Of a stretch of 64,000 nt of DNA, positions 1-17,018 are shown in pieces. The notes under the pieces are model-generated. The model ran no database searches. It was not told where the DNA came from and saw only the letters and a program-made list of their open reading frames with translations. The stretch is from Planctomycetaceae bacterium (GTDB lineage Bacteria; Planctomycetota; Phycisphaerae; SM23-33): contig JBDKTA010000033.1 of NCBI GenBank assembly GCA_039680605.1, positions 82,463 through 146,462 of the forward strand. The letters run 5' to 3'. The translations under genes and the position numbers were made by a program. How positions within the stretch are numbered: position 1 is the first letter of the stretch; the number at the start of each line of letters is the position of its first letter.

Positions 1-229
1 CGAATGCCGACAGCGCATCCATGAGCCCGAAGATGCCCGCCGAGATCAGGTCGTCGACGTCTACCTCCTCGGGCAACTTGGTGTAGACGCGCTCGGCGGT
101 GTACTTCACCAGCGGCAGGTAATACTCCAGCAACTGGTTGCGCGATTCCTCATCAGAAGTTTTTCTGAATTGCTTCCACCAGTGCTCGAGTTGCTCTGGA
201 GACAACTTCTTCCGTGTTACTGCCGGCAT
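1..229 (-). CDS. fliA: Flagellar-type sigma factor (FliA/WhiG), N-terminal part
   Basis: RNA polymerase sigma factor of the sigma-28 class, which directs core polymerase to late flagellar and chemotaxis promoters. Only the first 76 codons are in the window; the rest runs off the left edge. Region 2 is visible: YLPLVKYTAERV, then KLPEEVDVDDLISAGIFGLM, which is the typical sigma-28 region 2.1-2.2 with the D-DLIS-G-FGL-DA core. The ATG at 229 is preceded by AGGAG about six bases upstream, which fixes the start. It lies downstream of flhG in the flagellar gene order, separated by 274 bases that hold their own promoter-like sequence, so it may be transcribed apart from the big operon. FliA and WhiG cannot be told apart from this fragment. 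Confidence 0.9.
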   Translation of the reverse strand, partial: MPAVTRKKLSPEQLEHWWKQFRKTSDEESRNQLLEYYLPLVKYTAERVYTKLPEEVDVDDLISAGIFGLMDALSAF

Positions 230-503: not shown

Positions 504-1352
504 TCATTTGAGCCACCCCGCCACGCGGCGGAAGAAACCTTCGCGCCCCACGTCTTCCAGGCGCGTGCTGCACAGCGCCCGCGCCACGTCGGCCAAGCAG
601 CGGCTGGCAGCACACTGCGGGTACGCCAGGACGAGCGGTTGTCGCTGCCGCACGGCCTGGGACATCTTCAGATCACTGACGACGTAGCCGCCCTCAGCGA
701 CATGCACGTCGAGAAACTGTTTGGCCACGGCGGCGATTCGCGAGCAGGTGGCGTGCCCTTCGGCCGCGTTCCGCGCCTGGTTGGTCACCACCGTCATGGC
801 GCACGCCGCGTTGGCGCGCGTGAGAACTTTGATCAGCGCGTAGGCGTCAGTGACGGCCGTGGGCTCGGGCGTGGTGACGACGACGGCCGTGTCGGCGGCG
901 GCGGCGAAGCTCAGCACCTCCGGTCCGATCCCGGCGCCGCAGTCGATGACGACGACGTCGTTGTCGGCTTCGAGGGCGGAGAGTTCCTCGATGAGTCTGG
1001 CGCGGTCGAATGCGCTCAGGTCGGCCAGGCGCGGCAGGCCGCTGGCGCCGGGGACGAACTGCAGCCCGCAGGGCAGATTCATGACCACGTCGGCGAGATG
1101 TCCGGCGCCTTCGATGACGCGGGAGAGGTCGCAGGCGGCCTCGACGTCGAGCATGATGTCGAGGTTCGCCAGCGCCAGGTCGGCGTCGACCAGGGCGACG
1201 CGGTGGCCGGCGGCGGAGATCAGGATCGCCAGGTTGGCGGCGATGCAGCTCTTGCCCACGCCGCCCTTGCCGCTGGCGACGGCGATGGTGTGCGTGCGGC
1301 GCTGCTGCATCAGCGAGCGCAGGCGCTGGGCTTGATCGACCTGCTCGCTCAT
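504..1352 (-). CDS. flhG: FlhG (FleN/YlxH), MinD-like flagellar number regulator
   Basis: A 282-aa ParA/MinD-family ATPase that works with FlhF to set the number and site of flagella. The deviant Walker A is GKGGVGK at residues 28-34, followed by the Walker A' region VDADLALANLD near 56-66. The N-terminus carries DQAQRLRSL (residues 6-14), the DQAxxLR motif that in FlhG stimulates FlhF GTPase activity; this separates it from cell-division MinD. The start overlaps the flhF stop in ATGA (1349-1352), so translation is probably coupled. It is the last gene of the long flagellar operon. Confidence 0.9.
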   Translation of the reverse strand: MSEQVDQAQRLRSLMQQRRTHTIAVASGKGGVGKSCIAANLAILISAAGHRVALVDADLALANLDIMLDVEAACDLSRVIEGAGHLADVVMNLPCGLQFVPGASGLPRLADLSAFDRARLIEELSALEADNDVVVIDCGAGIGPEVLSFAAAADTAVVVTTPEPTAVTDAYALIKVLTRANAACAMTVVTNQARNAAEGHATCSRIAAVAKQFLDVHVAEGGYVVSDLKMSQAVRQRQPLVLAYPQCAASRCLADVARALCSTRLEDVGREGFFRRVAGWLK

Positions 1353-2443
1353 GAGAGCACCTCGCCCAGGATCATCTGCGCCAGGCGGTCGGCCTTGGCC
1401 GGGGCAATGTCGTCGGGCACTTCCTGGCCGAACGTCGTGTAGCTCAGCGGGGCCTTGCTGGCCTCGACCATGTTGAGCACCAGGCCGTACGTGACGGCCT
1501 CGTCGAGCTTGGTCAGCGTGAGGCGGTTGGCGCCGATCTGGGCGAACTTCTCCACGGCCCGGCGCGTGGCGGCCTGGTTGCCGGTGGCCGAGGCGACCAG
1601 GTGTACCTCGTCGGCCTCGGCGGCGTCCAGAAAGCTGCGCAGCTGCCCCAGGCGGAGCTGGTCGCCGGGGCTGCGACCGGTAGTGTCGATGAGGATGACG
1701 TCGGCGGCCGTGGCGGCCTTGATGGTCCGGCGCATTTCCGTTGGGCTCAGGACCGCCTGGATGGGCACCTCGATGATGTCGGCGTAAGTTTTGAGCTGAT
1801 CGACAGCCGCAATGCGGTAGGTGTCGATCGTGATCAGCGAGACGCTCTTGTGCTGGGCGATTTTAAAGTTGGCGGCGAGCTTGGCGATGGTGGTGGTCTT
1901 GCCCACGCCGGTAGGGCCGACAAAGGCGATGACTCTCGGGCCGGCGGCGCTCTCGGCAGGCGGGGCGGTGCGGATGCGCGCGGCGATTCGCTTTCGCAGT
2001 TCGGTGCGGACGGCGGATTCATCCTGCATCTGCTGTCCGGTCAGGTCGCGGGCGGTCTGGTCGATCAGTTCCGCGGCCAGCGCCGCCTCGACATCCTGCG
2101 CCAGCAGGTGGTCGTGCAATTTCTGCAGCACCAGCGGGCGTTGCGCCGCCGCCGACGCGGGGCGGCGGGCGAGTTGCTCGACGAGGATCTTGATCTCGGC
2201 GATCTGCCCTTCGAGCGGACCGGCCGGGGCGGGGGCGTCGCTGGCGTACACGCCGGTCAGGGGCGCCAGGTCTCCGCTGTGCGGAGCGGCGGTGATTTCC
2301 CACGCCCGGCGCGAGCCGATGCCCATCCATCCGCCGATGCGGCAGCGGCGCGTCCGCAGGATCACCGCGTCGCGCCCCAGGTCGCCTTTGACAGCCGCCA
2401 GAGCCTCGGCCATCGTCGCTGCTTTATAATTCTTCGCGTTCAT
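1349..2443 (-). CDS. flhF: FlhF, SRP-type flagellar GTPase
   Basis: A 364-aa SIMIBI-class GTPase related to Ffh and FtsY, which places the first flagellar components at the membrane. The N-terminal B-region begins with KNYKAATMAEAL and GRDAVILRTRR, as is usual for FlhF. The NG domain fills the C-terminal half, with P-loop GPTGVGKTTTIAKLAA near residue 177, then LITIDTYRIAAVDQLKTYA and the G3/G4-type ILIDTTGR and LTLTKLDEA. It overlaps the end of flhA by 20 bases and flhG by four. Length and domains are normal. Confidence 0.93.
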   Translation of the reverse strand: MNAKNYKAATMAEALAAVKGDLGRDAVILRTRRCRIGGWMGIGSRRAWEITAAPHSGDLAPLTGVYASDAPAPAGPLEGQIAEIKILVEQLARRPASAAAQRPLVLQKLHDHLLAQDVEAALAAELIDQTARDLTGQQMQDESAVRTELRKRIAARIRTAPPAESAAGPRVIAFVGPTGVGKTTTIAKLAANFKIAQHKSVSLITIDTYRIAAVDQLKTYADIIEVPIQAVLSPTEMRRTIKAATAADVILIDTTGRSPGDQLRLGQLRSFLDAAEADEVHLVASATGNQAATRRAVEKFAQIGANRLTLTKLDEAVTYGLVLNMVEASKAPLSYTTFGQEVPDDIAPAKADRLAQMILGEVLS

Positions 2444-4526
2444 AATTATCTTCCGTGATCGTCACCGGCTGCACCTGCACGCCGGACACTTCGTCGTATC
2501 CCAGAACCACCGCCGCGGGGACCGCCGTCGCCACCGCGCCGGCCAGGGCCTTGCGCAGCATTGGTCGGCACAGCACCACCGGACGGTGCCCCCCCACTCG
2601 CAACCGGCTCGCGCCAGCCGAAACCGCCTGGGCGAGAGTCTCGGCCAAAGCCGGCGAGAGCACCCCGCCGCCGCGCCCGAGTTCCTGGGCGGCGGCTTGC
2701 TCGGTTTTCTCGTCCAGGCACAGGCACCACAGCGCGCCGTCGGCGGCGCAGTACTGTTGCGACAGCGCCGGGCCCAGTTGGCGACGGATGTAATCGCACG
2801 CTTCTTCGATGGGCTCCTCGACCGGTCGCTCGGCCAGGGCTTCGAGGATCGTCTCCAGGTCGCGTACCGAAACGCCCTGGCCCAGCAGATGCTGCAGGGC
2901 CTTGTGAATGCGGGCCAGCGGCAGCCTGGCCAGCGTTTCTTTGACCAGCGCCTCGGCGCTGCCGCGGAGGGACTCGACGGTGGCCGCCACCTGCTGACGC
3001 GTCAGCAGCGAGGCGGCGTGGATGCGGATCATCTGCCCCAGGTGCGTCATGAGGACGTCGACCGGCTCGATAACCGTGTAGTTGAGCGCCTCGGCCGCGG
3101 CGGCCTGGTCGGGCGCGATCCACACCGCCGCCGTGCCGAATGCCGGCTCGATCGTCTGACGCCCCAGCAGTTGGCCGCTCGTCGCCCCTGCCGCCACCGC
3201 CAGAAATTGCCCCGGATACAGCATTCCGCCGGCGACGCGGGCGCCGCGGATCTTGACGACGTACTCGTGCGCCCGCAGGCGCATGTCGTCGCGGATGCGA
3301 ATGGCCGGAACGATCAGCCCCAGCTCCAGCGCCACGTCGCGCCGCAGGGTAGCCAGGCGGTCCAGCAGGTCGCCGTCGCGGCTCTTGTCCGCCAGCGACA
3401 GCAGGGCGAAGCCCAGGTCCAGTTCCATCGCCTCGACGGCCAGGAGACCTTTGAGCTCCTTCTCGTCGGCGGCGGGTTTGGAAACGGTGGAGATGCCCGA
3501 GGCGCCGGCGATGGGCAGCACCCGCCGGCGCGACAGCAGCAGCGCCAGACCCGCGCACCCGGCCCCCATCAGCAGCAGCGGCACCTTCGGCAGACGCGTC
3601 AGCATCAGCGCCGCCAGGAACCCTGCCGTCACCGCCAGGGCAATCGGGCGGGCGATCAACTGTCCGATCACCTGCTCGGCAAAGTTCGTGCGGTCCATGC
3701 TCCGCGAGACGATCAGCGCCGCCGCGACGCTGACCAGCAGCGCCGAGATCTGCGCGACCAGTCCGTCGCCAATGGTCAACCGCGTGAACAAATCCAGCGT
3801 CTGCTCCCATCCCCAGGAGTACTGGACCATGCCCACGTACAGCCCGCCGCCGATGTTGACCAGCACGATGACCACCGCCGCCACCGCGTCGCCGCGGACG
3901 AACTTGGACGCGCCGTCCATCGCGCCGTAGAAGTCGGCCTCGCGGGCGATCTTGCGCCGCCTCTGGTGGGCCTGGGCCTCGTCGATGGTGCCGGCGTTGA
4001 CGTCGGCATCGATGGCCATCTGCTTTCCGGGCATGGCGTCGAGTACGAACCGGGCGGCCACTTCGCTGATGCGGGCGGCGCCCTTGGTGATCACCACGAA
4101 CTGCACCACCGCGATAATCGCAAACAAAATCACGCCCACCGCCAGGCTGCCGCTGGTGACGAACTGGCTGAACGACCAGACCACGTGCCCGGCCGCCATG
4201 CGGGCGGTCTCGATATCCGCCCCGCCGGCCCCGGCGGTCAGGATCAGCCGCGTCGTGGCGATGTTGAGCACCAGTCGCAGCAGCGTGGCCCCCAGCAGCA
4301 CCGACGGGAACACGCTGAACTCCAGCGGGCTATGCACGGAGATCGCCGTCATCAGGATGATCGCCGAGAGGGCGATGTTGGCCGAGAGCAGCACGTCCAT
4401 CAGCAGCGGCGGCAGCGGCACCAGCAGCACCAGCACCATCATGGCGGCGCCGCCGGGCAGCAGCAGCCCGCGATATCGCGCCAGCACCCGCGCCGCGCCG
4501 TTCATGGTGTCGTTCAAGTCAGCCAT
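2424..4526 (-). CDS. flhA: FlhA, flagellar export gate protein
   Basis: A 700-aa FHIPEP-family protein that forms the nonameric export ring. Residues up to about 320 hold the membrane helices plus the conserved cytoplasmic loop (READFYGAMDGASKFVRGDA), which couples to the proton motive force. The rest is the cytoplasmic docking domain that receives chaperone-substrate complexes, with RIRDDMRLRAHEYVVKIRG in it. It starts inside the end of flhB (overlap 4519-4526) and overlaps flhF, so the export genes are tightly packed. Length is normal for the family. Confidence 0.95.
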   Translation of the reverse strand: MADLNDTMNGAARVLARYRGLLLPGGAAMMVLVLLVPLPPLLMDVLLSANIALSAIILMTAISVHSPLEFSVFPSVLLGATLLRLVLNIATTRLILTAGAGGADIETARMAAGHVVWSFSQFVTSGSLAVGVILFAIIAVVQFVVITKGAARISEVAARFVLDAMPGKQMAIDADVNAGTIDEAQAHQRRRKIAREADFYGAMDGASKFVRGDAVAAVVIVLVNIGGGLYVGMVQYSWGWEQTLDLFTRLTIGDGLVAQISALLVSVAAALIVSRSMDRTNFAEQVIGQLIARPIALAVTAGFLAALMLTRLPKVPLLLMGAGCAGLALLLSRRRVLPIAGASGISTVSKPAADEKELKGLLAVEAMELDLGFALLSLADKSRDGDLLDRLATLRRDVALELGLIVPAIRIRDDMRLRAHEYVVKIRGARVAGGMLYPGQFLAVAAGATSGQLLGRQTIEPAFGTAAVWIAPDQAAAAEALNYTVIEPVDVLMTHLGQMIRIHAASLLTRQQVAATVESLRGSAEALVKETLARLPLARIHKALQHLLGQGVSVRDLETILEALAERPVEEPIEEACDYIRRQLGPALSQQYCAADGALWCLCLDEKTEQAAAQELGRGGGVLSPALAETLAQAVSAGASRLRVGGHRPVVLCRPMLRKALAGAVATAVPAAVVLGYDEVSGVQVQPVTITEDNYEREEL

Positions 4527-5310
4527 TGCCGCCCTCCCTCACCCGTCGCAGCGACGCCCATCCGCGGCGCTTGCTCATTTCCTTGCGGCGGGCCAGGCGG
4601 ATCTGTGGATCGCCTTCCATCTTCCGCATGTCGTCGAGGTACTCGCGCCGCGTCATCTTGAGATCCTGGCGGAATTGCCATCGCTGATAGAACAGGTCCA
4701 CCACCGCCAGCGCCAGCAGCGCCGCCGAGGCGCGCATGGCGATCTTCAGGACCGTCGAGCCGCCCCACGAGGCAATCTCGTCGGTGCTGCCGCCCGGCGG
4801 CAGAGCACCCCCCGCGCCCGCCGAGAATAGCGCCGCCCCGGCCATCACGCCGGCGGCTGTGGTCTTGGCCAGACCCAATCCCAGGCGCACGATCGACCGG
4901 CGGCCGAATAGCCCGCGCAGACCTTTCATCACGCCCAGGCGCGACAGGTCGAGCTTGAGCGGTTCGCTCGTCATCAGCGGCCCGACCTGCCCCATCCCCG
5001 CCCCCACCGCCAGCAGCGCTGCGGCCACGCACAACGCCCCGCCCAACCACAGCACCTCGCCAAGGGCGGGTATCTCCATCGCCGCAGCCGCACTGGGGGC
5101 GCCGGCGCCCGCCGAGTGCAGGCACGCGGCGAACATCTCCTTCAGCGCGCCGGTGAGCGGGCCCGCCAGCGCCATCAGCAACATCAAGCTGCCAAAGACG
5201 ACCACGGCGGAGGAAAGGTCCGCGCTGCGCGCAACCTGTCCGCGCCGCCGGGCCTCCTGCAGCCGCAGGGGCGTCGGCATCTCAGTCCGGGATGTCGTGT
5301 CGTCGCTCAT
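4519..5310 (-). CDS. flhB: FlhB export gate protein lacking the C-terminal autocleavage domain
   Basis: The N-terminus matches FlhB (RTEMPTPLRLQEARRRGQVA), followed by four membrane segments and the linker MTRREYLDDMRKMEGDP, which in other FlhB proteins leads into the cytoplasmic FlhBC domain with the self-cleaving NPTH motif. Here the protein ends about 20 residues later (ARRKEMSKRRGWASLRR...), at 263 aa instead of roughly 350-380. No NPTH is present, and flhA begins at once, so there is no room for a frameshifted FlhBC. FlhBC normally takes part in switching from rod/hook to filament substrates; it must be absent or encoded elsewhere. The start is preceded by AGGA next to a repeat array. 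Confidence 0.88.
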   Translation of the reverse strand: MSDDTTSRTEMPTPLRLQEARRRGQVARSADLSSAVVVFGSLMLLMALAGPLTGALKEMFAACLHSAGAGAPSAAAAMEIPALGEVLWLGGALCVAAALLAVGAGMGQVGPLMTSEPLKLDLSRLGVMKGLRGLFGRRSIVRLGLGLAKTTAAGVMAGAALFSAGAGGALPPGGSTDEIASWGGSTVLKIAMRASAALLALAVVDLFYQRWQFRQDLKMTRREYLDDMRKMEGDPQIRLARRKEMSKRRGWASLRRVREGGNG

Positions 5311-5394: not shown

Positions 5395-6177
5395 TCACCC
5401 GCCGGCGGCGAGCTGCGCGGCTTTGGCGCCGAGCATGTCCGCGCCGCGTTCGATCATGGGCAGCATCAGCGCCAGCCCTCCGGCCAGGGCCACCAGGCCC
5501 ACCAGCGCCTGGGCGGGCAGGCCGACGGTCAGGAGGTTCAGTTGGGGCATGGTGCGGCCGAGCACGGCCAGCACCGCGCCGATCACCAGCAGCGTCACCA
5601 CGACCGGGGCGGCGATCTTGATGGCCATGACGAACGACGCCGCCAGGACCGAGAGGGCGATGGTCAGCATTCCCTGCCCGCTGCCGATAGCACCCGGCGC
5701 GACGGCGGTGAACGTGCCCATCACCCCGCTGAGCAGCCCGCGGTGTCCGCCGACGGCCAGGAACACCACCACGCCCAGCAGGTACATCAGGCGCGTCAGC
5801 GGGTCGCTGCCGCCCTCGCCGGCCTCGGCGTCGGGGTAATACACCTGCCCCAGCGTCAGACCCATCTGTTGGCCGATCAGCGCGGCGGCCACTTCGACTC
5901 CCGCCAGCAGCATTCGGGCCGCCAGGCCGATCACCGACCCGATCAGTGCCTCGACGGCCAGGGCGACCAGCCCCGCGCCAAGCGAGGCGGGCATGGCCAG
6001 CGGCGCGGCGATCTGCGCCGCGGCGCCCACGGCCAAGGCCACGCACAGCAGGTATCGCAGGCGGGCCGGAAGCACGGAACTGCTGAAGACCGGCGCGATC
6101 ACGAACAACCCGCCGATGCGGGCCATCAGCAGCGCCAGCGTCCAGCCCCAGATTGTGTACTGCGACAAATCCATCAT
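5395..6177 (-). CDS. fliR: FliR, flagellar export gate protein
   Basis: A 260-aa membrane protein of the FliR/SpaR family that, with FliP and FliQ, builds the helical export gate. It has about six hydrophobic segments, beginning WTLALLMARIGGLFVIAPVF, with the conserved LIGQQMGLTLGQVYYPD loop near the middle. The start codon overlaps the fliQ stop (ATGA, 6174-6177). Two consecutive ATGs (6177 and 6174) could serve as start. Downstream an 84-base repeat-bearing spacer separates it from flhB. Confidence 0.92.
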   Translation of the reverse strand: MMDLSQYTIWGWTLALLMARIGGLFVIAPVFSSSVLPARLRYLLCVALAVGAAAQIAAPLAMPASLGAGLVALAVEALIGSVIGLAARMLLAGVEVAAALIGQQMGLTLGQVYYPDAEAGEGGSDPLTRLMYLLGVVVFLAVGGHRGLLSGVMGTFTAVAPGAIGSGQGMLTIALSVLAASFVMAIKIAAPVVVTLLVIGAVLAVLGRTMPQLNLLTVGLPAQALVGLVALAGGLALMLPMIERGADMLGAKAAQLAAGG

Positions 6178-6428
6178 CCCGTCCCGAACATCACTTTGGC
6201 GAAATCGATCAACCGCGTCAGCATCCAGTGCCCGGCCAGTGCGGCCGTCACCGCCACGGCGATCAGCTTGGGCACGAAGGTCAACGCCTGGTCCTGGATC
6301 TGCGTGGCGGCCTGCAGCAGGCTCACCACCAGGGCGATCACCAGCGTGGCCACGAGCATGGGCGCGCCGACGACCAGCGTCACCTTCAGGGCCTCGCGGG
6401 CCAGATCCATTGCATGGGCGGCGTCCAT
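6174..6428 (-). CDS. fliQ: FliQ, flagellar export gate protein
   Basis: An 84-aa protein with two membrane helices (TLVVGAPMLVATLVIALVV and PKLIAVAVTAALAGHWML) and the family's LLQAATQIQDQALTFVPK between them. FliQ packs around the FliP5FliR1 core of the export gate. Length is typical (about 85-90 aa). The ATG at 6428 follows AAGGAAA eight bases after the fliP stop, and the stop overlaps the fliR start. Confidence 0.93.
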   Translation of the reverse strand: MDAAHAMDLAREALKVTLVVGAPMLVATLVIALVVSLLQAATQIQDQALTFVPKLIAVAVTAALAGHWMLTRLIDFAKVMFGTG

Positions 6429-6436
6429 CGTTTTCC

Positions 6437-7237
6437 TTACGCGAAACTTTGCATCAGCGTGCCGACGACCAGGTGCCATCCGTCGGCCAGCACAAACAGC
6501 AGCAGCTTGAACGGGATCGAGACCATCACCGGCGGCATCATCAGCATGCCCATCGACGTCAGCACCGACGCCACCAGCAGGTCGACCACCAGGAACGGCA
6601 GGTACACGCGAAAGCCGATCCAGAAGGCGGTCTTGAGCTCGCTGACGACAAACGCGGCGATCACCGCCGGCGTCGGCACGTCCTTCCACGTCAGCTTGCC
6701 CACCCGCGAGGCCTCGGCCTGTTTGGCGTCCAGGAACAGCACCACGTCGTTCTGGCTGCGGGCGGCCTCGATCTGGCGGATCATGAACGTCCGCACCGGC
6801 GCCGCGCCGGCGGCCAGGGCGGCCTCGCCCTGCGCCCTGCCGGCCAGGTACGGTTCGATGCCATCGCGATAGACCGCCGAGTACACCGGCGCCATGACCA
6901 CCACCGTCATCAGCAGCGACAGACCGAAGAGCACCTGGTTGGGCGGCAGTTGGTTGGTCGCCAGCGCCTGTCGCAGCAGCCCCAGCACCACGACGATCCG
7001 CGTAAAGCAGGTCATCAGGATCGCCACGGCCGGAGCGACCGACAGCACCGTCACCAGGGCGACCCACTTGAGGGCGTTGCCCGCATCCTGCGGGCTCGAC
7101 AGGCTCGGGAGGGTAACGCCGCTGGCGGGTGCGGTCGCTGCGTGCGGCGTCGCGGGCGGCGCGGCAGGCGCCGACTGCGGCGCAAACAGCGCCCCGGCCA
7201 GCACCACCACCGCCAGAATGTTCGTCTTTAAGGTCAT
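6437..7237 (-). CDS. fliP: FliP, flagellar export gate protein
   Basis: A 266-aa FliP with an N-terminal signal-like segment, as in other FliPs that are made with a cleaved leader. Family signatures: AVAILMTCFTRIVVVLGLLR, then ATNQLPPNQVLFGLSLLMT, and the C-terminal half FWIGFRVYLPFLVVDLLVAS with SMGMLMMPPVMVSIPFKL. It forms the pentameric pore of the export gate. It overlaps fliO by four bases (ATGA, 7234-7237). Confidence 0.95.
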   Translation of the reverse strand: MTLKTNILAVVVLAGALFAPQSAPAAPPATPHAATAPASGVTLPSLSSPQDAGNALKWVALVTVLSVAPAVAILMTCFTRIVVVLGLLRQALATNQLPPNQVLFGLSLLMTVVVMAPVYSAVYRDGIEPYLAGRAQGEAALAAGAAPVRTFMIRQIEAARSQNDVVLFLDAKQAEASRVGKLTWKDVPTPAVIAAFVVSELKTAFWIGFRVYLPFLVVDLLVASVLTSMGMLMMPPVMVSIPFKLLLFVLADGWHLVVGTLMQSFA

Positions 7238-7863
7238 TTCGATTCAGCGGGTTTTTCTGCCACCGTCTGCGTCGTCGCGGTTCCCAGCAGCGCCGCCACT
7301 TCATCCGGGTCTGTCACTTCCGACAGCGTGGTCATCTGCTCGGGCCCAATGCCCACCAGCACCAGGCGGCGGCCCATGCGAACCAGGATCACCTGGTGGC
7401 GGTACGTCACGCCGCGGCGGCCGACGATCTCGATGACCGCGCCGCCGCGCCCGCCGACCCTGGGCCCACCCATGCGTTTCATGACCGAGCGAATGATCAG
7501 GATCAGCGCGATCACCACCGCCAGCGCCCCTGCCGTCCGCAGCAGGTCCCACTCCGTCGCCGGGGCGGCGCTGTTGCCGATAGGACGGTCCTCGATCGAC
7601 TGCAGCGGGCGGGTGGAAACGTCGGCTGTCGCCGGGGCGCTCTGGGCGACTGCGGGAGCGACCACGGCAAGAAGGATGATCGCTGCAGCGACGATCAGGG
7701 ACATGGCGGCTGAGAAACGGCCGTCATGGCACCCCGCCGGTAGCACGGGCATCTTGCCCGTGAGTCGCATGGGCGTCTCGCCCATGCCCCGTGTCGCGGA
7801 CGTCCCGTCCGCGCGTGTCGCGGGCGTCTCGCCCGCGTCTTGTTGTTTCTCTGATCTCTTCAT
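7234..7863 (-). CDS. fliO: FliO, flagellar export assembly factor, with repeat-derived N-terminus
   Basis: FliO helps the FliP ring assemble. The family part is the membrane helix ALAVVIALILIIRSVMKRM followed by the small basic domain YRHQVILVRMGRRLVLVGIG and EQMTTLSEV. The ATG at 7863 overlaps the fliN stop (ATGA), which argues for a 209-aa product. Its residues about 10-42, however, are encoded by palindromic repeats (7739-7840) and read as low-complexity GETPATRADG and MGETPMRLTGKMPVLPA. A second possible start at 7704 gives a normal signal-peptide-like beginning (MSLIVAAAIILLAVVAPAVA) without the repeats. Either the repeats are translated as a leader or they separate fliN from fliO. Neither start has a clear ribosome-binding site. 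Confidence 0.85.
   Translation of the reverse strand: MKRSEKQQDAGETPATRADGTSATRGMGETPMRLTGKMPVLPAGCHDGRFSAAMSLIVAAAIILLAVVAPAVAQSAPATADVSTRPLQSIEDRPIGNSAAPATEWDLLRTAGALAVVIALILIIRSVMKRMGGPRVGGRGGAVIEIVGRRGVTYRHQVILVRMGRRLVLVGIGPEQMTTLSEVTDPDEVAALLGTATTQTVAEKPAESK
7739..7840. repeat. Four palindromes of the GGGCG-tctc-CGCCC family inside the 5' part of fliO
   Basis: Consecutive hairpins: CACGGGCATCTTGCCCGTG, CATGGGCGTCTCGCCCATG, CGCGGACGTCCCGTCCGCG and CGCGGGCGTCTCGCCCGCG. Stem bases differ between copies but stay paired. The same family occurs at 16896-17018, 24481-24562 and 34635-34662. Confidence 0.9.
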
Positions 7864-8084
7864 GTCGTTCTCACGCCGTCTATCCGCACGCCCAGGCGGT
7901 CTTGCACGCTCACCAGCGACCCGACGGCCATCGGCTGCCCTTCGCAGCAGATCTCGACCGCTCCCGTCGCGGCGGTATCGAGCGTGATGATCGATCCTTC
8001 CGCCAGGCGCCGCAGCGCGGCGGCATCGGTCCACGCCCCGCCCAGGTCGATGCGCATAGCCGTTTGCGATTCAAGCGTCTTCAT
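7860..8084 (-). CDS. fliN: FliN-like SpoA (C-ring) protein, minimal form
   Basis: A 74-aa protein that is essentially one SpoA domain (LRRLAEGSIITLDTAATGAV, then MAVGSLVSVQDRLGVRI). SpoA domains of FliM and FliN form the lower ring of the flagellar switch. Position between fliJ and fliO and ATGA overlaps on both sides (8081-8084, 7860-7863) support FliN. It lacks the N-terminal extension many FliN proteins have, and no fliM is in the window. It could in principle be another SpoA-only export accessory protein. Confidence 0.78.
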   Translation of the reverse strand: MKTLESQTAMRIDLGGAWTDAAALRRLAEGSIITLDTAATGAVEICCEGQPMAVGSLVSVQDRLGVRIDGVRTT

Positions 8085-8536
8085 GGCAGCGTCTCCCCGG
8101 CCGGTCGCCGGGCCGCGTAGGCTTCGTCATCCGCGGCCGCGGCTATCGCCGCGTCGCGCAGGCGTTGCTGCCTGCGGCGGCGGTCAGCCAGCGCCCGGGC
8201 GGTCCGCACCAGCAGGACGGCGTCGAGAAGCTTCTTGCGGCTGCGGACCAGCGAGCTCTCGCCGCTGCGGGCCTGCTGTTGCAGCGCGCCCGTTTGGGCA
8301 CGAATCTCGCTTACGCTGGCGCGGTATCCCGCCGGCACGCCTGCGCCGGCGCCGGACAGCAGGCTTCGCCGCGCTGCGGCGTCCTGTTCTTCCAGCGAGG
8401 CATCGAGATCCGTCAGCCGGTTCCGCAGGCACGTCAGGTCGCGGTACGCGCGCGCCAGGACCGCGGCGGCCTCGTCTTGCCCCCGGCGGCGAAACCGCAC
8501 CAGCATGTCAGCACACTGCGTGCGTCGGTCGATCAT
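8081..8536 (-). CDS. fliJ: FliJ-like export chaperone
   Basis: A 151-aa charged, largely helical protein (LVRFRRRGQDEAAAVLARAY ... LRNRLTDLDASLEEQDAAAR ... RKKLLDAVLLVRTARALADR) of the size and place expected for FliJ, the coiled-coil stalk linking the FliI ATPase to FlhA. Sequence identity to FliJ is weak in general, so the call rests on position directly after fliI and on the coiled-coil character. The ATG at 8536 lies 29 bases inside the end of fliI. Longer in-frame starts would run backwards through fliI and are less likely. Confidence 0.75.
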   Translation of the reverse strand: MIDRRTQCADMLVRFRRRGQDEAAAVLARAYRDLTCLRNRLTDLDASLEEQDAAARRSLLSGAGAGVPAGYRASVSEIRAQTGALQQQARSGESSLVRSRKKLLDAVLLVRTARALADRRRRQQRLRDAAIAAAADDEAYAARRPAGETLP

Positions 8537-9869
8537 CGCGGTACGTTCCTGTTTCTTGCGGCTGGCCGGCGAAGACCAGTTGCTGCAGTTCAGCCGTCGT
8601 CTGGGCAAAATCGCATTGCTCACCCACGCCCTGGCGCAGGAAGGCGTCGATCTCATCCTGCGCGGCGATCGCCTCGTCAAAATGCGGATTCGCCCCGGCC
8701 TGGTAGACGCCCAGGTTGAGCAGTTCCTCGACCTCGCGGTACAGCCCGACCATCCGCCGCACGCGGGCGGCGGCGGACTGATGTTCTGCTGAAGCCACCT
8801 CGCCCATCACGCGCGAGACGCTGGTGACGATGTCGATAGCGGGCCAGTGCCCGCGATTGGCCAGCGTTCGCGTCAGGTGGATGTGCCCGTCAGCCACGGC
8901 GCGGACGGCGTCGGCCAGCGGGTCGCCGGCGTCGCCTTCTTCGGCCAACACGGTGTAGAAACCGGTGATGGATCCGGCGGCGGTGCGTCCGCAGCGCTCC
9001 ATCAGTTGCGGCAGGAGGTTGAAGACGCTGGGCGTGTATCCGCGCACGGTGGCGGGTTCGCCGGCGGCCAGCCCGATCTGCCGCTGGGCGGCGGCCAGGC
9101 GCGTCAGCGAGTCCATCACCAGCAGCACGTTGGCGCCGCGGTCACGGAAGTACTCGGCCACCGCCGTGGCGACGGCGCCGGCTTGCACGCGCAGCAGCGG
9201 CGGTTCGTCGCTGGTCGATGCCACCACCACGCAGTGCTTCAGGGCGTCGGAGCCCAATTCCTTGTCGACGAACTCGCGCACCTCGCGGCCGCGCTCGCCG
9301 ATCAGCGCCACCACCGTCACGTCTGCGACGGCGCGCCGGGCGATCATGCCCAACAGCACGCTCTTGCCCACGCCGCTGCCTGAGATAATGCCCATGCGCT
9401 GGCCCTGGCCGACGGTGAGCATCGCGTCGATGGCTCGCACGCCGGTGGGCAGCGGCGCGTCGATGCCCCGCCGCGACAGCGGGGCGATGGGCAGCGGCCA
9501 CAGGCTCTGCGGCATGGCCGCGGCCGGAGCGGCTCTGCCGTCGATGCAGCGCCCCAGACCGTCGAGCACGCGACCAAGCAGGCCTTCGCACACGCCAACG
9601 GTCTGCTCAGCGAAGGTGCAATGCACCAGGTCGCCGCGGCGGATCCCCGTCATGGCGCCAGCCGGCATCACCAGCGTGCTGCGCCCGTCGAAGCCGATCA
9701 CCCGCGCCTCGAGTCCTCCGCCGGCGCAGGCGATCCGGCAGCCGGCGCCCAGCGGCACGGCGAAGTCCGCCACGCTGACCGTCAGCCCGCGCACCGCCTC
9801 CACGCGACCGGTGACGTCCACCGGCTCGATGCGGTCCAGGGCTTCGGATTGTCGTTCAAATATCTGCAT
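8508..9869 (-). CDS. fliI: FliI, flagellum-specific ATPase
   Basis: A 453-aa hexameric ATPase of the F1-beta/FliI/SctN family that energises unloading of export substrates. Walker A GSGVGKS is near residue 165, followed by LIGERGREVREF and the Walker B region VLLVMDSLTRLA. The N-terminal barrel and the C-terminal chaperone-binding region are present, with the family hallmark VRGYTPSVFNLLPQLMERCG. It starts 14 bases inside the end of fliH. Confidence 0.96.
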   Translation of the reverse strand: MQIFERQSEALDRIEPVDVTGRVEAVRGLTVSVADFAVPLGAGCRIACAGGGLEARVIGFDGRSTLVMPAGAMTGIRRGDLVHCTFAEQTVGVCEGLLGRVLDGLGRCIDGRAAPAAAMPQSLWPLPIAPLSRRGIDAPLPTGVRAIDAMLTVGQGQRMGIISGSGVGKSVLLGMIARRAVADVTVVALIGERGREVREFVDKELGSDALKHCVVVASTSDEPPLLRVQAGAVATAVAEYFRDRGANVLLVMDSLTRLAAAQRQIGLAAGEPATVRGYTPSVFNLLPQLMERCGRTAAGSITGFYTVLAEEGDAGDPLADAVRAVADGHIHLTRTLANRGHWPAIDIVTSVSRVMGEVASAEHQSAAARVRRMVGLYREVEELLNLGVYQAGANPHFDEAIAAQDEIDAFLRQGVGEQCDFAQTTAELQQLVFAGQPQETGTYRDDRPTHAVC

Positions 9870-10623
9870 GCACTTTCGAATCCGCGGCCGCGATGTACTG
9901 GCCGGTCATGTTCTGTTGAGGCTCGACAGCGCGACCGAGCAGCGCTTGGGCGACTCGCCGCAGTTGCGTTTCGATGGTCGCGTCGACCGCCCCGCAGCGC
10001 GTCAGCACGCGGGCGCCGCCGGCGGCGATGGACTCGTCGCCCTGGAGCCTGACTCGCCCGGCGCGGCCGAGCTCGCGCCACAGGCGCAGTGCTTCCTGCT
10101 CCAACGCAGGCAGTTGCGCGGGATTGACGCACACGATGATTTCGTCGCCGTCGCTGGAGCGTTCCATCGCCCGTCGAAGGTTGACCAGCGCCGCGCCGAT
10201 GTCGACAGCCGCCACCTCGCCCACGATTCGCCGCGCCAGCTCGATAGCGAACAGCAGCAGTTGCTCCTGGCGGTCCTGCAGGGTCTGCGTCTTGGCCGCG
10301 ACCAATTCGTCCACGATCTTGCCCGCCGCCTGGGCCAGGGCGGACATTCGCAACTGGCTCTTCTGGGCGGCTTGGCGCAGGCCGTGGGCGTATCCTTCGG
10401 TCTGCCCTCGCTGGAAACCCTGCTCGTAGGCGCTGCGGTTGTAGTTGGTCTGTGCCGACTCGAGCTGGGCCTGGGCGGCGACGACAATCCGCTGGGCCTC
10501 TGCCCGGGCCTGGTCGAGAATCTGCTTGCCCTGGGCCTCGAAGTCCGGCAGGGACAGTTCGGGCGCATCGCCGGCGTCGCAGGCGGCGGCGCGGATGATC
10601 CAGGCTGTCTTGGAGGCGCTCAT
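9856..10623 (-). CDS. fliH: FliH, negative regulator of FliI
   Basis: A 255-aa FliH/SctL-type protein. It has a long helical region with the glycine-spaced heptads EQGFQRGQTEGYAHGLRQA, then the C-terminal V-ATPase E-like domain ending GGARVLTRCGAVDATIETQ. FliH binds FliI and links it to the C-ring. The start codon overlaps the fliF-fliG stop (ATGA, 10620-10623). Confidence 0.9.
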   Translation of the reverse strand: MSASKTAWIIRAAACDAGDAPELSLPDFEAQGKQILDQARAEAQRIVVAAQAQLESAQTNYNRSAYEQGFQRGQTEGYAHGLRQAAQKSQLRMSALAQAAGKIVDELVAAKTQTLQDRQEQLLLFAIELARRIVGEVAAVDIGAALVNLRRAMERSSDGDEIIVCVNPAQLPALEQEALRLWRELGRAGRVRLQGDESIAAGGARVLTRCGAVDATIETQLRRVAQALLGRAVEPQQNMTGQYIAAADSKVHADI

Positions 10624-12479
10624 GTGGCGGCGGCCTCCTGTGCTTCGTCGGTCGTGGTGCCGCAGCGGCGCACCGCGCGGGCGACGTGGTCCTGGGCGGC
10701 TTCCACTTCGCTGAGGCGCACCGGCGGCAGGGTGTCCATCTGGCGGCGCAGGTCCCGCGTCGCGCGGCTGCCCAGGCAGTGGAAGATCTTCGAGCGAACG
10801 ACCTGACCTGCCGTGCGCAGCGCTACGGCCAGCACCTGCGGATCGAGCGTCGCCAGGGCGTCGCGGAGTTCGTCGTCGCCGACGAGTCCGAGGTCTTCAA
10901 AGGCCAGCAGGTCGCGGCGGATGTTGCGCGCCAGTTGCGGCTGCGATGAGGCGACCAGTTGCATCACCGCCCCGCCGGAGGCGCCGTCGGCGTGAGTAAG
11001 GATCTCACGGATGACGGCCTGGCCTTGCCCCTGCGGCGTGTGCAGGGCGTTGAGGCGGTCGGTCAGCGTGGCCAGCACGTCCTGCACGGTGCGTTCGTCG
11101 ACTGCCGGCGGACGCGCCAGGTGCATCACCACCTGTCGGGCGACGGGCCCGTCGAGCGCCGCCAGGACGGCCGCCGCCCGCCGCGGACTCATGCGCGACA
11201 GCACGATGGCGATGGTCTGCGTCTGCTCCGAGGCCAGAACCCACAGCAGATCGTCGTCGGCCAGACGCTCCAGACGGCGAATGGCGCCGTCGTCGGCCGA
11301 ACCATGCTCTGCGGGCGATGGGGGCTGTTCGCTCGCGCTGGCTGCTTTGGGGCGGCGCCGTCGGCGGCGCAGCACGGCCACGGCGCAGCCGGCGCCGGCC
11401 AACACGAGCGCCGCCGAGGCGGCGATGGCCCAGGCGCCGCGACGCGGCTGAGAGTGGCCGACAAACGCCGCGGCGAGCGCTTCGTCCGACAAGGCGTCAG
11501 TGTAGGAATCAACCATGACGGCCCGGGCGTCGGCGCCGATGATGCGTGCCGCGGCCGCGGCGATGCGGGCGAGTTCGTCGCGCGTGACCTGCTGGAGATC
11601 GAGATTGCGTGTGCGGGCGATGGTCTCAAAGTAGCTCCGCGGCGCCAGCAGCGACGCGGCGGTGCATGACTCGCCCTCGGGCGCCACCTGAACCGTGACG
11701 GTCAGACCGGGGACATAGGTCAAGGCCCCGGCGATGCGCTGCTGCCAGTAGTCGCTCACGCGGGCGCGATTGGCCAGGCGGTCTTCCTGCATGAGCGTCT
11801 CGTCGCCGGCCGCGTAGCTGCGCCCGCGCTGGTCGATGATTCGGACGGCGGCGCGATCGAGCCCGGCGATGCTTCCGGACAACAGGTCGGCGATGGCGTT
11901 GACGAGCTGCGCTGTCATGCGCGACTGGGCCCGCATGCGCAGATTGACCGCCGCGGTGGCCGAGACGGACGGCTGACCGATCTTACCCGGCTGGGCGGGC
12001 TCGAAGAGAACCTCCGCAAACTCGACGTCGGGGAACTGCCCGATCAGGCGTGCGAGCCGGTCGGCCTTGGCGGCCGCCGCTCGCTGGGCGCGCTGCGACT
12101 CCGAGAGCCAGATGTCTTCCTGGGCGGTGGCGGCCTGGGCGGCCAGGTCCTGCGGGGTCAGCGAGGCGTCGATGAGAATTTTCCGCGCCGCGGCGAGCGA
12201 GTCGGGATGCACGAGCAACCGCCCGCCGACGATCTGACACTCGATGCCCCCTCCGGCAAGCATGCCCGCGGCGTTCTTGACGTGCTCGGCTGGCAGAGGC
12301 TGGGCGAAGACGGCTTTGCGTTGCGGGGCGGCGTCGCTGGCCATCAGCCAGATGCCCCCCGCCACGGCCAGCACCGCCAGCGCAGCGGCAGCGCCCTGCC
12401 AGATGCGTCCGGTGACCGACGCCTGGGCCTTGAGCCTCAACCAGAGCTTGTGAAACACCTTCACTGGGCGGTCCTCCAT
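10620..12479 (-). CDS. fliF-fliG: Natural FliF-FliG fusion (MS-ring plus rotor switch protein)
   Basis: One 619-aa frame holds both proteins. FliF part: first membrane helix about 29-47, ring-building motifs (GGGIECQIVGGRLLVHPDSL; QFPDVEFAEVLFEPAQPGKI; LMDRAAV-like region), LLAPRSYFETIARTRNLD, and a second membrane helix about 346-370 ending in RRRRRR. FliG part: a middle-domain match about 398-470 (LWVLASEQTQTIAIVLSRMS, where FliG has the EHPQTIA-type motif) and a C-terminal motor domain about 505-612 ending PPVRLSEVEAAQDHVARAVR. The FliG N-domain, which normally binds the FliF tail, is missing, and the FliF periplasmic part is short. The ATG at 12479 was chosen over a GTG at 12500 that lies in a repeat; neither has a strong ribosome-binding site. 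Confidence 0.9.
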   Translation of the reverse strand: MEDRPVKVFHKLWLRLKAQASVTGRIWQGAAAALAVLAVAGGIWLMASDAAPQRKAVFAQPLPAEHVKNAAGMLAGGGIECQIVGGRLLVHPDSLAAARKILIDASLTPQDLAAQAATAQEDIWLSESQRAQRAAAAKADRLARLIGQFPDVEFAEVLFEPAQPGKIGQPSVSATAAVNLRMRAQSRMTAQLVNAIADLLSGSIAGLDRAAVRIIDQRGRSYAAGDETLMQEDRLANRARVSDYWQQRIAGALTYVPGLTVTVQVAPEGESCTAASLLAPRSYFETIARTRNLDLQQVTRDELARIAAAAARIIGADARAVMVDSYTDALSDEALAAAFVGHSQPRRGAWAIAASAALVLAGAGCAVAVLRRRRRRPKAASASEQPPSPAEHGSADDGAIRRLERLADDDLLWVLASEQTQTIAIVLSRMSPRRAAAVLAALDGPVARQVVMHLARPPAVDERTVQDVLATLTDRLNALHTPQGQGQAVIREILTHADGASGGAVMQLVASSQPQLARNIRRDLLAFEDLGLVGDDELRDALATLDPQVLAVALRTAGQVVRSKIFHCLGSRATRDLRRQMDTLPPVRLSEVEAAQDHVARAVRRCGTTTDEAQEAAAT

Positions 12480-12494
12480 GACCGCTGTACTGGG

Positions 12495-12545
12495 TGGCAC
12501 AGCCTTTCAAGGCTGTGATCGTCACAGGCTGGAAAGCCTGTGCCA
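12495..12545. repeat. Full-length copy of the TGGCACAGCC / GGCTGTGCCA palindrome
   Basis: A 51-base palindrome: TGGCACAGCCTTTCAAGGCT with its GTG end, nine spacer bases, then CACAGGCTGGAAAGCCTGTG with its CCA end. It lies between the MerR-type gene and fliF-fliG and covers the alternative GTG start of the latter. Two further copies lie inside the coding sequence at 34670-36085. Confidence 0.92.
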
Positions 12546-12570
12546 CCGCTCGATCATCCTTGACAGAGCG

Positions 12571-12912
12571 TTACGTCGCCGGCGATGTCGAAAGCCGCTG
12601 GCGAATCTGCCCGAGCTTCATGCCCTGGGCTTTCAACTTTTCAATCGAATCCAACCGCTCGAACGCCGACTCGTCATAGAGCCGGTGCCCGCCGCGGGTC
12701 CAGCCGCATTCCTGCAGCAGCCCCATGGCGGTGTAGTTGTGAATCGTCTGACGGCTGGCGCCGAGATAGTCCGCCAGTTCGCTGATGCGATACACCTTGG
12801 GCGGCCGCCGCCGTCCGTCGCACCGCGTCGCAGTCACCGCGCCGGCGTCAGAGGCCGCGTCGCCCGAGGAGCTACCGGCAGGCGTCTGCGGATTTGTGTC
12901 TATCGCATCCAT
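12571..12912 (-). CDS. MerR-type DNA-binding protein
   Basis: A 113-aa protein with a MerR-family winged helix: YRISELADYLGASRQTIHNY, then GLLQECGWTRGGHRLYDESA and a dimer helix RLDSIEKLKAQGMKLGQIRQ. No C-terminal ligand-binding domain follows, as in HspR-like or small MerR proteins. The ATG at 12912 is preferred over a TTG at 12930. It sits about 90 bases upstream of fliF-fliG on the same strand, so it may be the first gene of the flagellar operon and a candidate regulator of it; that link is inference. Confidence 0.82.
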   Translation of the reverse strand: MDAIDTNPQTPAGSSSGDAASDAGAVTATRCDGRRRPPKVYRISELADYLGASRQTIHNYTAMGLLQECGWTRGGHRLYDESAFERLDSIEKLKAQGMKLGQIRQRLSTSPAT

Positions 12913-13077
12913 AAAAGTCTCAAGTGCCAACCTCGCGTCGACCGGCTACCGCTTTTTACGCTTTGCAAAATGTATAGTGGCCGCGGTGAAGCAGCAACCC
13001 AAAAATCTTTAGAAAATCTGAAAAAATGTTCCCGGCGACTTGCCTCCTGCCGGTGCGCCCCGATTTGGCGGGGGGAT

Positions 13078-13415: not shown

Positions 13416-14531
13416 ATGTTGCCCATGCACTGCCTTCGTTTGACCATCGTGATTGCCTTCGCCGCGGCGGCGGGTCTGGGCGGATGCCGAAAGGCGCCCT
13501 CCCCCCCTTCCGCTCCAACGGCCGTGTCACGCCCGGCGGCGTCAAATCCGCAGCCTGCCCGGCCCGTGTCGGGCAACAGGGGCGGAAAGCCGCCGGCAGC
13601 GTTGCAGGCCAAGAGGGTCTCAGGTCCGTCCCCTGCTACCGCCCCCGCTACGCGGGGGGTGCAAGCGGCACGGATTTCAGCGGGCAAGCAGGAGTATCTG
13701 CCCCTGCCCAAGGCGGCCACGACCCGGGCCGCATCGGGTCCCAGCGTCGATCTTGATATTGCCGAGGGTGACGCGGCACTGGCGGCAGGAAACTTGCGCG
13801 GGGCCGAAGCGGCGTTCCGGCGAATGCTCGAGCGCCATCCCGACGACTATGACGCCCTGTGCGGCCTGGCGACGACGCTGACGGCAGGGGGCGACAATCT
13901 GCCGGCGATGTTGACGTACCGGCGCATTGTGGCCCTGCGCGAGAACGACCGCACGGCGAGGTTTAACCTGGCGGTGGCGCTGTCGCGTCTGGAGCGTTTC
14001 GACGAAGCCCGGCAGGAGTTCCTCCTCCTGCTGCGGCAGAACGCCGACGACGTGCGGGCTCGCTACAACCTGGGGATGATCCTGGCGGCCCAGGGCAAGC
14101 TCGACGAGGCCCGCCATCATCTTCAGGGCGTCGTCAGCCGCACCGACTCGCTTCCGTCAGCGTATGCGATCCTCGGCCAGGTGCTGACCGATCTGGGCGA
14201 CAGCGAGGGCGCGATGGAGGCCTACGGCAAGGCCGCCTCGCTCCAAGGCGACGACATCGACACCTGGAAGAACTACGCCGTCGCCGCCCAGGCCGCCGGC
14301 AGCTACGGGCGGGCGATCATGGCCGCGTCGCGCGTGACGAGGCTGAACTCCTCCGACCCCGCCGCCTGGGCGTACCTGGGCGACCTGCACATGACCGTGT
14401 ACCAATCGACGCAGAAAGAACACTTTCTGATCCAGGCCCGCCAGGCGTGGACGCGGTCGCTATCGCTCAACAGCGACCAGCAAAACGTGCGGGCAAAACT
14501 GCAAGCCGCCCCGCGACCCAAGGAGCCGTAA
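13416..14531 (+). CDS. TPR-repeat lipoprotein
   Basis: A 371-aa protein with a lipoprotein signal (hydrophobic LTIVIAFAAAAGLGGC, lipobox GLGGC), a Pro/Ala-rich linker to about residue 110, then tandem tetratricopeptide repeats such as GDAALAAGNLRGAEAAFRRM and RFNLAVALSRLERFDEARQE to the C-terminus. It is probably anchored to a membrane facing the periplasm and acts as a protein-protein scaffold. The true start may be the second ATG (13425). The next gene starts four bases after its stop, with AAGGAG inside its own 3' end, so the two are probably cotranscribed. Its function is not identifiable. Confidence 0.85.
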   Translation: MLPMHCLRLTIVIAFAAAAGLGGCRKAPSPPSAPTAVSRPAASNPQPARPVSGNRGGKPPAALQAKRVSGPSPATAPATRGVQAARISAGKQEYLPLPKAATTRAASGPSVDLDIAEGDAALAAGNLRGAEAAFRRMLERHPDDYDALCGLATTLTAGGDNLPAMLTYRRIVALRENDRTARFNLAVALSRLERFDEARQEFLLLLRQNADDVRARYNLGMILAAQGKLDEARHHLQGVVSRTDSLPSAYAILGQVLTDLGDSEGAMEAYGKAASLQGDDIDTWKNYAVAAQAAGSYGRAIMAASRVTRLNSSDPAAWAYLGDLHMTVYQSTQKEHFLIQARQAWTRSLSLNSDQQNVRAKLQAAPRPKEP

Positions 14532-16895: not shown

Positions 16896-17018
16896 TAGCA
16901 TGGGCACCTGCCTGCCGGCAGGCAGGTCTTGCCCATGAGTAGCACGGGCGTCTCGCCCGTGCAAACCGGGACATGGCCGAGACGGCCATGCTACTCACGG
17001 GCGGGACGCCCGTGCTAC
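16896..17018. repeat. Cluster of GGGCG-tctc-CGCCC family palindromes
   Basis: Three linked hairpins: TAGCATGGGCACCTG with a CTGCCGGCAG core and matching CTTGCCCATGAGTA; TAGCACGGGCGTCTCGCCCG; and ACATGGCCGAGACGGCCATG followed by CACGGGCGGGACGCCCGTG. They begin 24 bases upstream of the M81 gene start. The gap 16872-17197 (326 bases) otherwise holds only a short stretch up to the next gene with no clear signal. Confidence 0.9.

Follow-up and report, generated by a model that had tools for sequence, protein, structure and literature searches.

A natural fusion of FliF to FliG that lacks the N-terminal domain of FliG (FliG-N) is known from Chlamydiaceae (C. pneumoniae Cpn0860; Bergeron 2016, PMC4768692), and such an architecture is therefore not new in itself. 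In C. pneumoniae, FliF, FlhA and FliI interact (Stone 2010, PMC2830194). Abby and Rocha (2012; PMC3459982) encountered non-flagellar type III secretion systems (NF-T3SS) in Chlamydiae, Proteobacteria and Verrucomicrobia and nowhere else, and engineered FliF-FliG fusions have been studied in Salmonella and Vibrio (PMC11481574, PMC7355467). For Planctomycetota, a search of the open-access literature found no report of a FliF-FliG fusion or of a flagellum-derived secretion system, which is weak evidence of absence. Here, we analysed a 64,000-nucleotide stretch (the window) from the genome of a Planctomycetaceae bacterium of the class Phycisphaerae, in which a fusion of this kind lies in an export operon. 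The fusion probably forms the ring of a type III apparatus of flagellar descent, predicted to export, that has no rod, hook, filament, torque or substrate switch.

The fusion is encoded by a single open frame on the minus strand, running from an ATG at 12479 to a stop at 10620 (10620-12479, 619 aa). Pfam searches placed YscJ_FliF at residues 61-221 (1e-17), FliG_M at 411-481 (5e-14) and FliG_C at 510-606 (4e-23), with no match to FliF_C and none to FliG_N upstream of the FliG_M region. A FliG_N match that overlays FliG_M was rejected as a sign of retained FliG-N, because helical repeats of this kind are related and cross-match; in the fusion model, the counterpart of the FliGn structure is residues 418-482, in the FliG_M part. 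An AlphaFold2 model built from 18 relatives (mean pLDDT 81.6) showed RBM1, RBM2, RBM3 and TM2 (350-373), followed by the FliG M and C domains, while its pTM of 0.38 makes the inter-domain arrangement unreliable. Residues 125-223 of the model fit RBM2 of Salmonella FliF (Z 16, rmsd 1.3), residues 127-329 superpose on Salmonella FliF 125-438, and residues 407-611 on T. maritima FliG 115-322. The ring-building domains of FliF, two transmembrane helices and FliG_M thus share one frame in the absence of FliG-N, which is the combination of the Chlamydia type. Alignment with native Phycisphaerae FliF shows a single gap of ~90 residues in the RBM3 of the fusion, where the beta-collar, the part of FliF that surrounds the rod, is missing; the RBM3 core is kept. 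Nothing after TM2 matches native FliF, the conserved FliG-binding C-terminal tail being gone.

The fused frame occurs in 18 of the 35 genomes that make up one Phycisphaerae family. Among the matches listed for the 298 class genomes surveyed, a list without the weakest matches, none lay outside that family. The fusions of the 17 other genomes are 513-658 aa long, contain no internal stops and are 28-35% identical to the window copy. An assembly artefact or a frameshift joining two genes was rejected, because the intact frame recurs in so many genomes of the family. A single-sequence search of genome contigs with the window fusion gave no match; with a 5-row fusion alignment, the named relatives were Phycisphaerae MAGs, e.g. 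UBA12270 and fen_1349. With dN/dS ratios of 0.12-0.31 (five pairs), the fusion is under purifying selection. As far as the protein itself is concerned, the original prediction of a natural in-frame FliF-FliG fusion that had dropped FliG-N is borne out: no stop or frameshift separates the halves in the other genomes, and FliG-N was lost together with the FliF tail. Both membrane helices and both quoted FliG motifs were read correctly, the second helix having been placed at about 346, and the suspected reduction of the periplasmic part corresponds to the missing beta-collar. The dispensability of FliG-N under a covalent link and the 1:1 ratio of FliF to FliG, also claimed there, follow from the architecture.

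The genes around the fusion (Table 1) are ordered merR, fliF::fliG, fliH, fliI, fliJ-like, short fliN, fliO, fliP, fliQ, fliR, flhB, flhA, flhF, flhG and sigma-28, and this order is kept in relatives. The export gate (FliPQR, FlhA and FlhB, the last truncated) and the ATPase are all present in the operon; no rod, hook, filament or stator gene was found in it. The merR gene upstream of the fusion is conserved in relatives and also lies near fliF/fliG in flagellar loci of the sister family (G001 and G002), and a sigma-28 homologue adjoins the operon in at least six relatives. The TPR lipoprotein-like gene beyond merR (13416-14531) has no homologue in the flagellar loci examined and is a possible accessory factor of the fusion system. 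The gap separating merR from the fusion contains a palindromic repeat (12497-12550). The N-terminal region of FliO (within 7234-7863) carries a dispersed-repeat-like sequence, GETPATRADGTSATRGMGETPMRLTGKMPVLP, and similar sequences occur near 16900 and 24500.

Table 1. Coordinates of the fusion operon and adjoining genes in the window.
Feature	Position	Strand	Evidence or domains
sigma-28 type sigma factor gene (start)	1..229	-	runs off left window edge
flhG, MinD/ParA-type ATPase	504..1352	-	
flhF, SRP-type GTPase	1349..2443	-	
flhA, complete including cytoplasmic domain	2424..4526	-	FHIPEP 1-653/657
flhB, truncated	4519..5310	-	covers profile positions 2-239 of 335; lacks the NPTH autocleavage motif and the C-terminal switch domain
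fliR	5395..6177	-	
fliQ	6174..6428	-	Bac_export_3 1.8e-28
fliP	6437..7237	-	
fliO	7234..7863	-	Pfam FliO 1.5e-10
short fliN, single SpoA domain, ~74 aa	7860..8084	-	FliMN_C 5e-12; genome match C33:90337
fliJ-like coiled-coil gene	8081..8536	-	position and weak similarity to same-place genes only; no Pfam match
fliI export ATPase	8508..9869	-	Pfam ATP-synt_ab and T3SS_ATPase_C; tree
fliH	9856..10623	-	Pfam FliH 4e-13; conserved next gene in subtype-1 loci
fliF::fliG fusion	10620..12479	-	TM1 ~29-47; RBM1 ~54-113; RBM2 ~125-223; RBM3 without beta-collar ~227-329; TM2 350-373; FliG_M ~397-480; FliG_C ~484-611
MerR-type regulator, directly upstream of fusion	12571..12930	-	Pfam MerR_1 7.5e-13
TPR lipoprotein-like gene, beyond merR	13416..14531	+	homologues near fusion in 7 other genomes

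In the FliI tree, which contains no SctN, the fusion systems form one clade (98/95) that is sister to the flagellar FliI of a sister family (100/99), and the second flagella of the fusion-bearing family form a clade of their own (100/100) apart from the fusion systems. The fusion operon is thus derived from the resident flagellum; the flagellum used for swimming belongs to another lineage. By profile, FliI scored 529 bits with NCBIfam FliI_clade1 and 517 bits with SctN, both under the cut-off. The sister family (f2) has adjacent, separate and full-length fliF and fliG in the order flgB-flgC-fliE-fliF-fliG-fliH-fliI-fliJ, in which flgB, flgC, fliE and fliJ were named by sight and position. The fusion presumably arose by a deletion that ran from the fliF tail through FliG-N across such adjacent genes, and the simplest account of the data is that the resident flagellar operon gave rise to it once, within this family of Phycisphaerae.

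Residues tied to rotation and to substrate switching have changed in the fusion systems. At the equivalents of the FliG torque pair, which we take to be D288/D289 in E. coli numbering, both residues are acidic in only 1 of 18 fusions (that of G012), compared to all 20 other FliGs (9/9 and 11/11); the window fusion has R/Q. A basic residue is mostly retained at the K264 and R297 positions. NPTH was seen in no FlhB of a fusion system, and in most of them the profile match stops at ~225-247 of 335, whereas the FlhB proteins of the second flagellum and of the sister family cover the whole profile. In one relative, G015, the FlhB frame carries a stop.

In addition to the short fliN, a FliM-like SpoA gene (250 aa) was found unlinked to the operon (G000 C44:115451-115645; L019:11443-12195, minus strand), with homologues in nine other fusion-carrying genomes (ten in total). 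In G006, the gene's match to Pfam FliM (6e-5) falls below the curated cut-off. Genes named by sight as HflX-like, CstA-like or RNase Y-like neighbour the FliM-like gene. Five relatives (G014, G018, G019, G021 and G022; loci L069, L061, L057, L056 and L058, respectively) jointly lack fliH, fliI, fliN and the FliM-like gene, and their operons appear, judged by gene content, to be an even smaller, ATPase-less version of the fusion system. Four of these five have lost RBM1 as well, and G014 has lost most of RBM3. In flagella, the EHPQ motif of FliG binds FliM. Where a genome retains FliN or the FliM-like protein, the fusion mostly still carries this motif (the window fusion reads EQTQ); it is degraded in the fusions of the five relatives, from whose fusion systems FliN, FliM-like, FliH and FliI are absent. 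That these were lost together suggests a role for the FliG half as a docking ring for a sorting platform.

A separate flagellum is encoded elsewhere in the window's genome. Contig C13 carries separate fliF (504 aa) and fliG (339 aa) genes in a cluster with genes resembling flagellin, fliD, motAB, fliL/M/N, flgBC, fliE and chemotaxis genes, which were partly named from sequence starts; further profile matches confirmed flagellin, the FliM/N C-domains, FlhA and a sigma factor, and further rod and hook genes lie on contig C17. This second flagellum has its own FliF, FliG, FliI, FlhA, FlhB and sigma factor. The original prediction had named a full-length separate fliG, coupled with a fused part that is not conserved, as evidence against itself; the separate fliG exists, but the fused part is conserved all the same, presumably because it serves a different machine.

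In seven genomes (G004, G006, G012, G024, G026, G035 and G036), the fusion is the only FliG_C match. None of these seven matches Flg_bb_rod, the one short Pfam model by which rod and hook genes were detected, whereas all 11 two-FliG genomes have 2-7 such matches (Fisher p 3e-5, kinship ignored). Flagellin gave no match in six of the seven; the exception, G006, has one match near a contig end (C5:436-849) and 6% contamination, and this match is contamination or a relict. The fusion-only genomes are MAGs that are 68-91% complete and belong to five genera, not fully independent, and the absences are therefore statistical, given this incompleteness; missing data alone are unlikely to account for the absence of rod genes. 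In genomes with both a flagellum and the fusion system, parts could be shared between the two.

The original prediction had placed the fusion in the MS ring and rotor of a working flagellar motor, its covalent link making FliG-N dispensable. The retention of FliG_M and FliG_C with their folds and of the basic residues discussed above would fit such a motor, and engineered fusions, as stated in that prediction, can support function. This role is nevertheless very unlikely, given that the window's organism encodes another flagellum, complete with fliF and fliG genes, that the fusion-only genomes have no rod or hook matches and mostly no flagellin, and that the beta-collar, the acidic pair (in 17 of 18 fusions) and the FlhB switch have all been lost. 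Part exchange, in which the fusion operon provides an alternative ring and export module to the second flagellum and forms no machine of its own, is hardly to be expected: both systems are present in many genomes, but seven keep the operon with neither a separate fliG nor a rod-gene match, and the second flagellum of the window's genome is equipped with its own counterparts.

The operon may also be viewed as a decaying, functionless remnant of the ancestral flagellum, kept by chance after the second flagellum took over swimming. Its patchy presence in the family (18 of 35 genomes), the loss of several components and the stop in the G015 FlhB frame are all compatible with decay. Against it stand the low dN/dS ratios and the intact frames in 18 genomes as divergent as their identities to the window copy indicate, the intact and ordered gate operon, and its retention in genomes that have no other flagellum. 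Moreover, the losses are specific (beta-collar, FlhB switch and FliG-N), while FlhA and FliPQR are complete. We consider a remnant unlikely.

The preferred reading is that of an export apparatus, and we propose the following model. The resident flagellum would have turned into an apparatus for type III export that has neither rod nor torque. Its FliF half would build an MS-like ring, set in the inner membrane and encircling the gate of FliPQR, FlhB and FlhA. On the cytoplasmic side, the FliG M and C domains tethered to FliF would make up a second ring, with one FliG per FliF (1:1), so that the fusion is a combined MS-ring/C-ring scaffold. On this FliG ring, a sorting platform of the short FliN, the unlinked FliM-like SpoA protein and FliH-FliI-FliJ may be scaffolded, which would feed substrates into the gate. 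FlhF and FlhG may place the apparatus at one site, and MerR and sigma-28 may control expression of the operon. Members like the window's organism would swim by means of the second flagellum, of another lineage.

The fusion system shares homologous FliF, FliG_M/C, FliHIJ, FliOPQR, FlhAB and FlhFG with the flagellar MS ring/switch and its type III export system, and its FliI falls inside Phycisphaerae flagella. What sets it apart from a flagellum is an operon devoid of genes for rod, hook, filament and stator, together with the loss of FliG-N, of the beta-collar, of the acidic pair for torque and of the FlhB switch. Injectisomes, including the secretin-less Myxococcales form, are likewise flagellum-derived export apparatuses without motility parts. 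The fusion system, by its FliI in the tree without SctN, descends from a Phycisphaerae flagellum, and it keeps FliG, FlhF, FlhG and sigma-28. Injectisome SctU proteins keep NPTH, which the FlhB of the fusion system lacks. The engineered Salmonella and Vibrio fusions also link FliF and FliG covalently but are man-made and part of a real rotor.

Chlamydiaceae come closest, with a reduced FliF fused to FliG without FliG-N, with FliI and FlhA kept, in a non-flagellated host of the same superphylum as the window's organism. Judging by its length, NCBIfam NF004606 (341 positions, 'type III secretion system protein') probably represents the family found in Chlamydia; it matches the window fusion (10623-12479) at 2.8e-6, slightly better than TIGR00206 FliF. 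In the relative G035, NF004606 also matches the FliG_M part of the fusion. The Chlamydia fusion is ~340 aa, has lost RBM1 and has FliG_M only, whereas the window-type fusion is ~600 aa, with RBM1-3 minus the collar and both FliG_M and FliG_C; in Chlamydia, a handful of flagellar genes accompany a genuine injectisome, whereas the window-type system has a complete export operon. By its gene content, the fusion system would be the second case after Chlamydia, and a far more complete one, in which a flagellum has become a machine for export without motility. With chances we judge to be even, it is a distinct Planctomycetota T3SS lineage from a converted Phycisphaerae flagellum that exports without rod, needle or substrate switch via an MS/C ring made in one piece, and the relict FliF-FliG/FliI/FlhA set of Chlamydia may be a homologue of which this system is the complete version. 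The beta-collar, FliG-N, the torque charges and the FlhB switch would then be parts of flagellar type III export that can be discarded together, and the five reduced relatives appear to dispense even with FliH, FliI, FliN and FliM. The system bears on the origins of injectisomes and on the roles that FliG, FliN and the ATPase have in export when rotation is set aside. The unfused sister family pictures the state before conversion, and since the phylum is related to Chlamydia, the system offers a way to read the unexplained flagellar remnants of Chlamydia.
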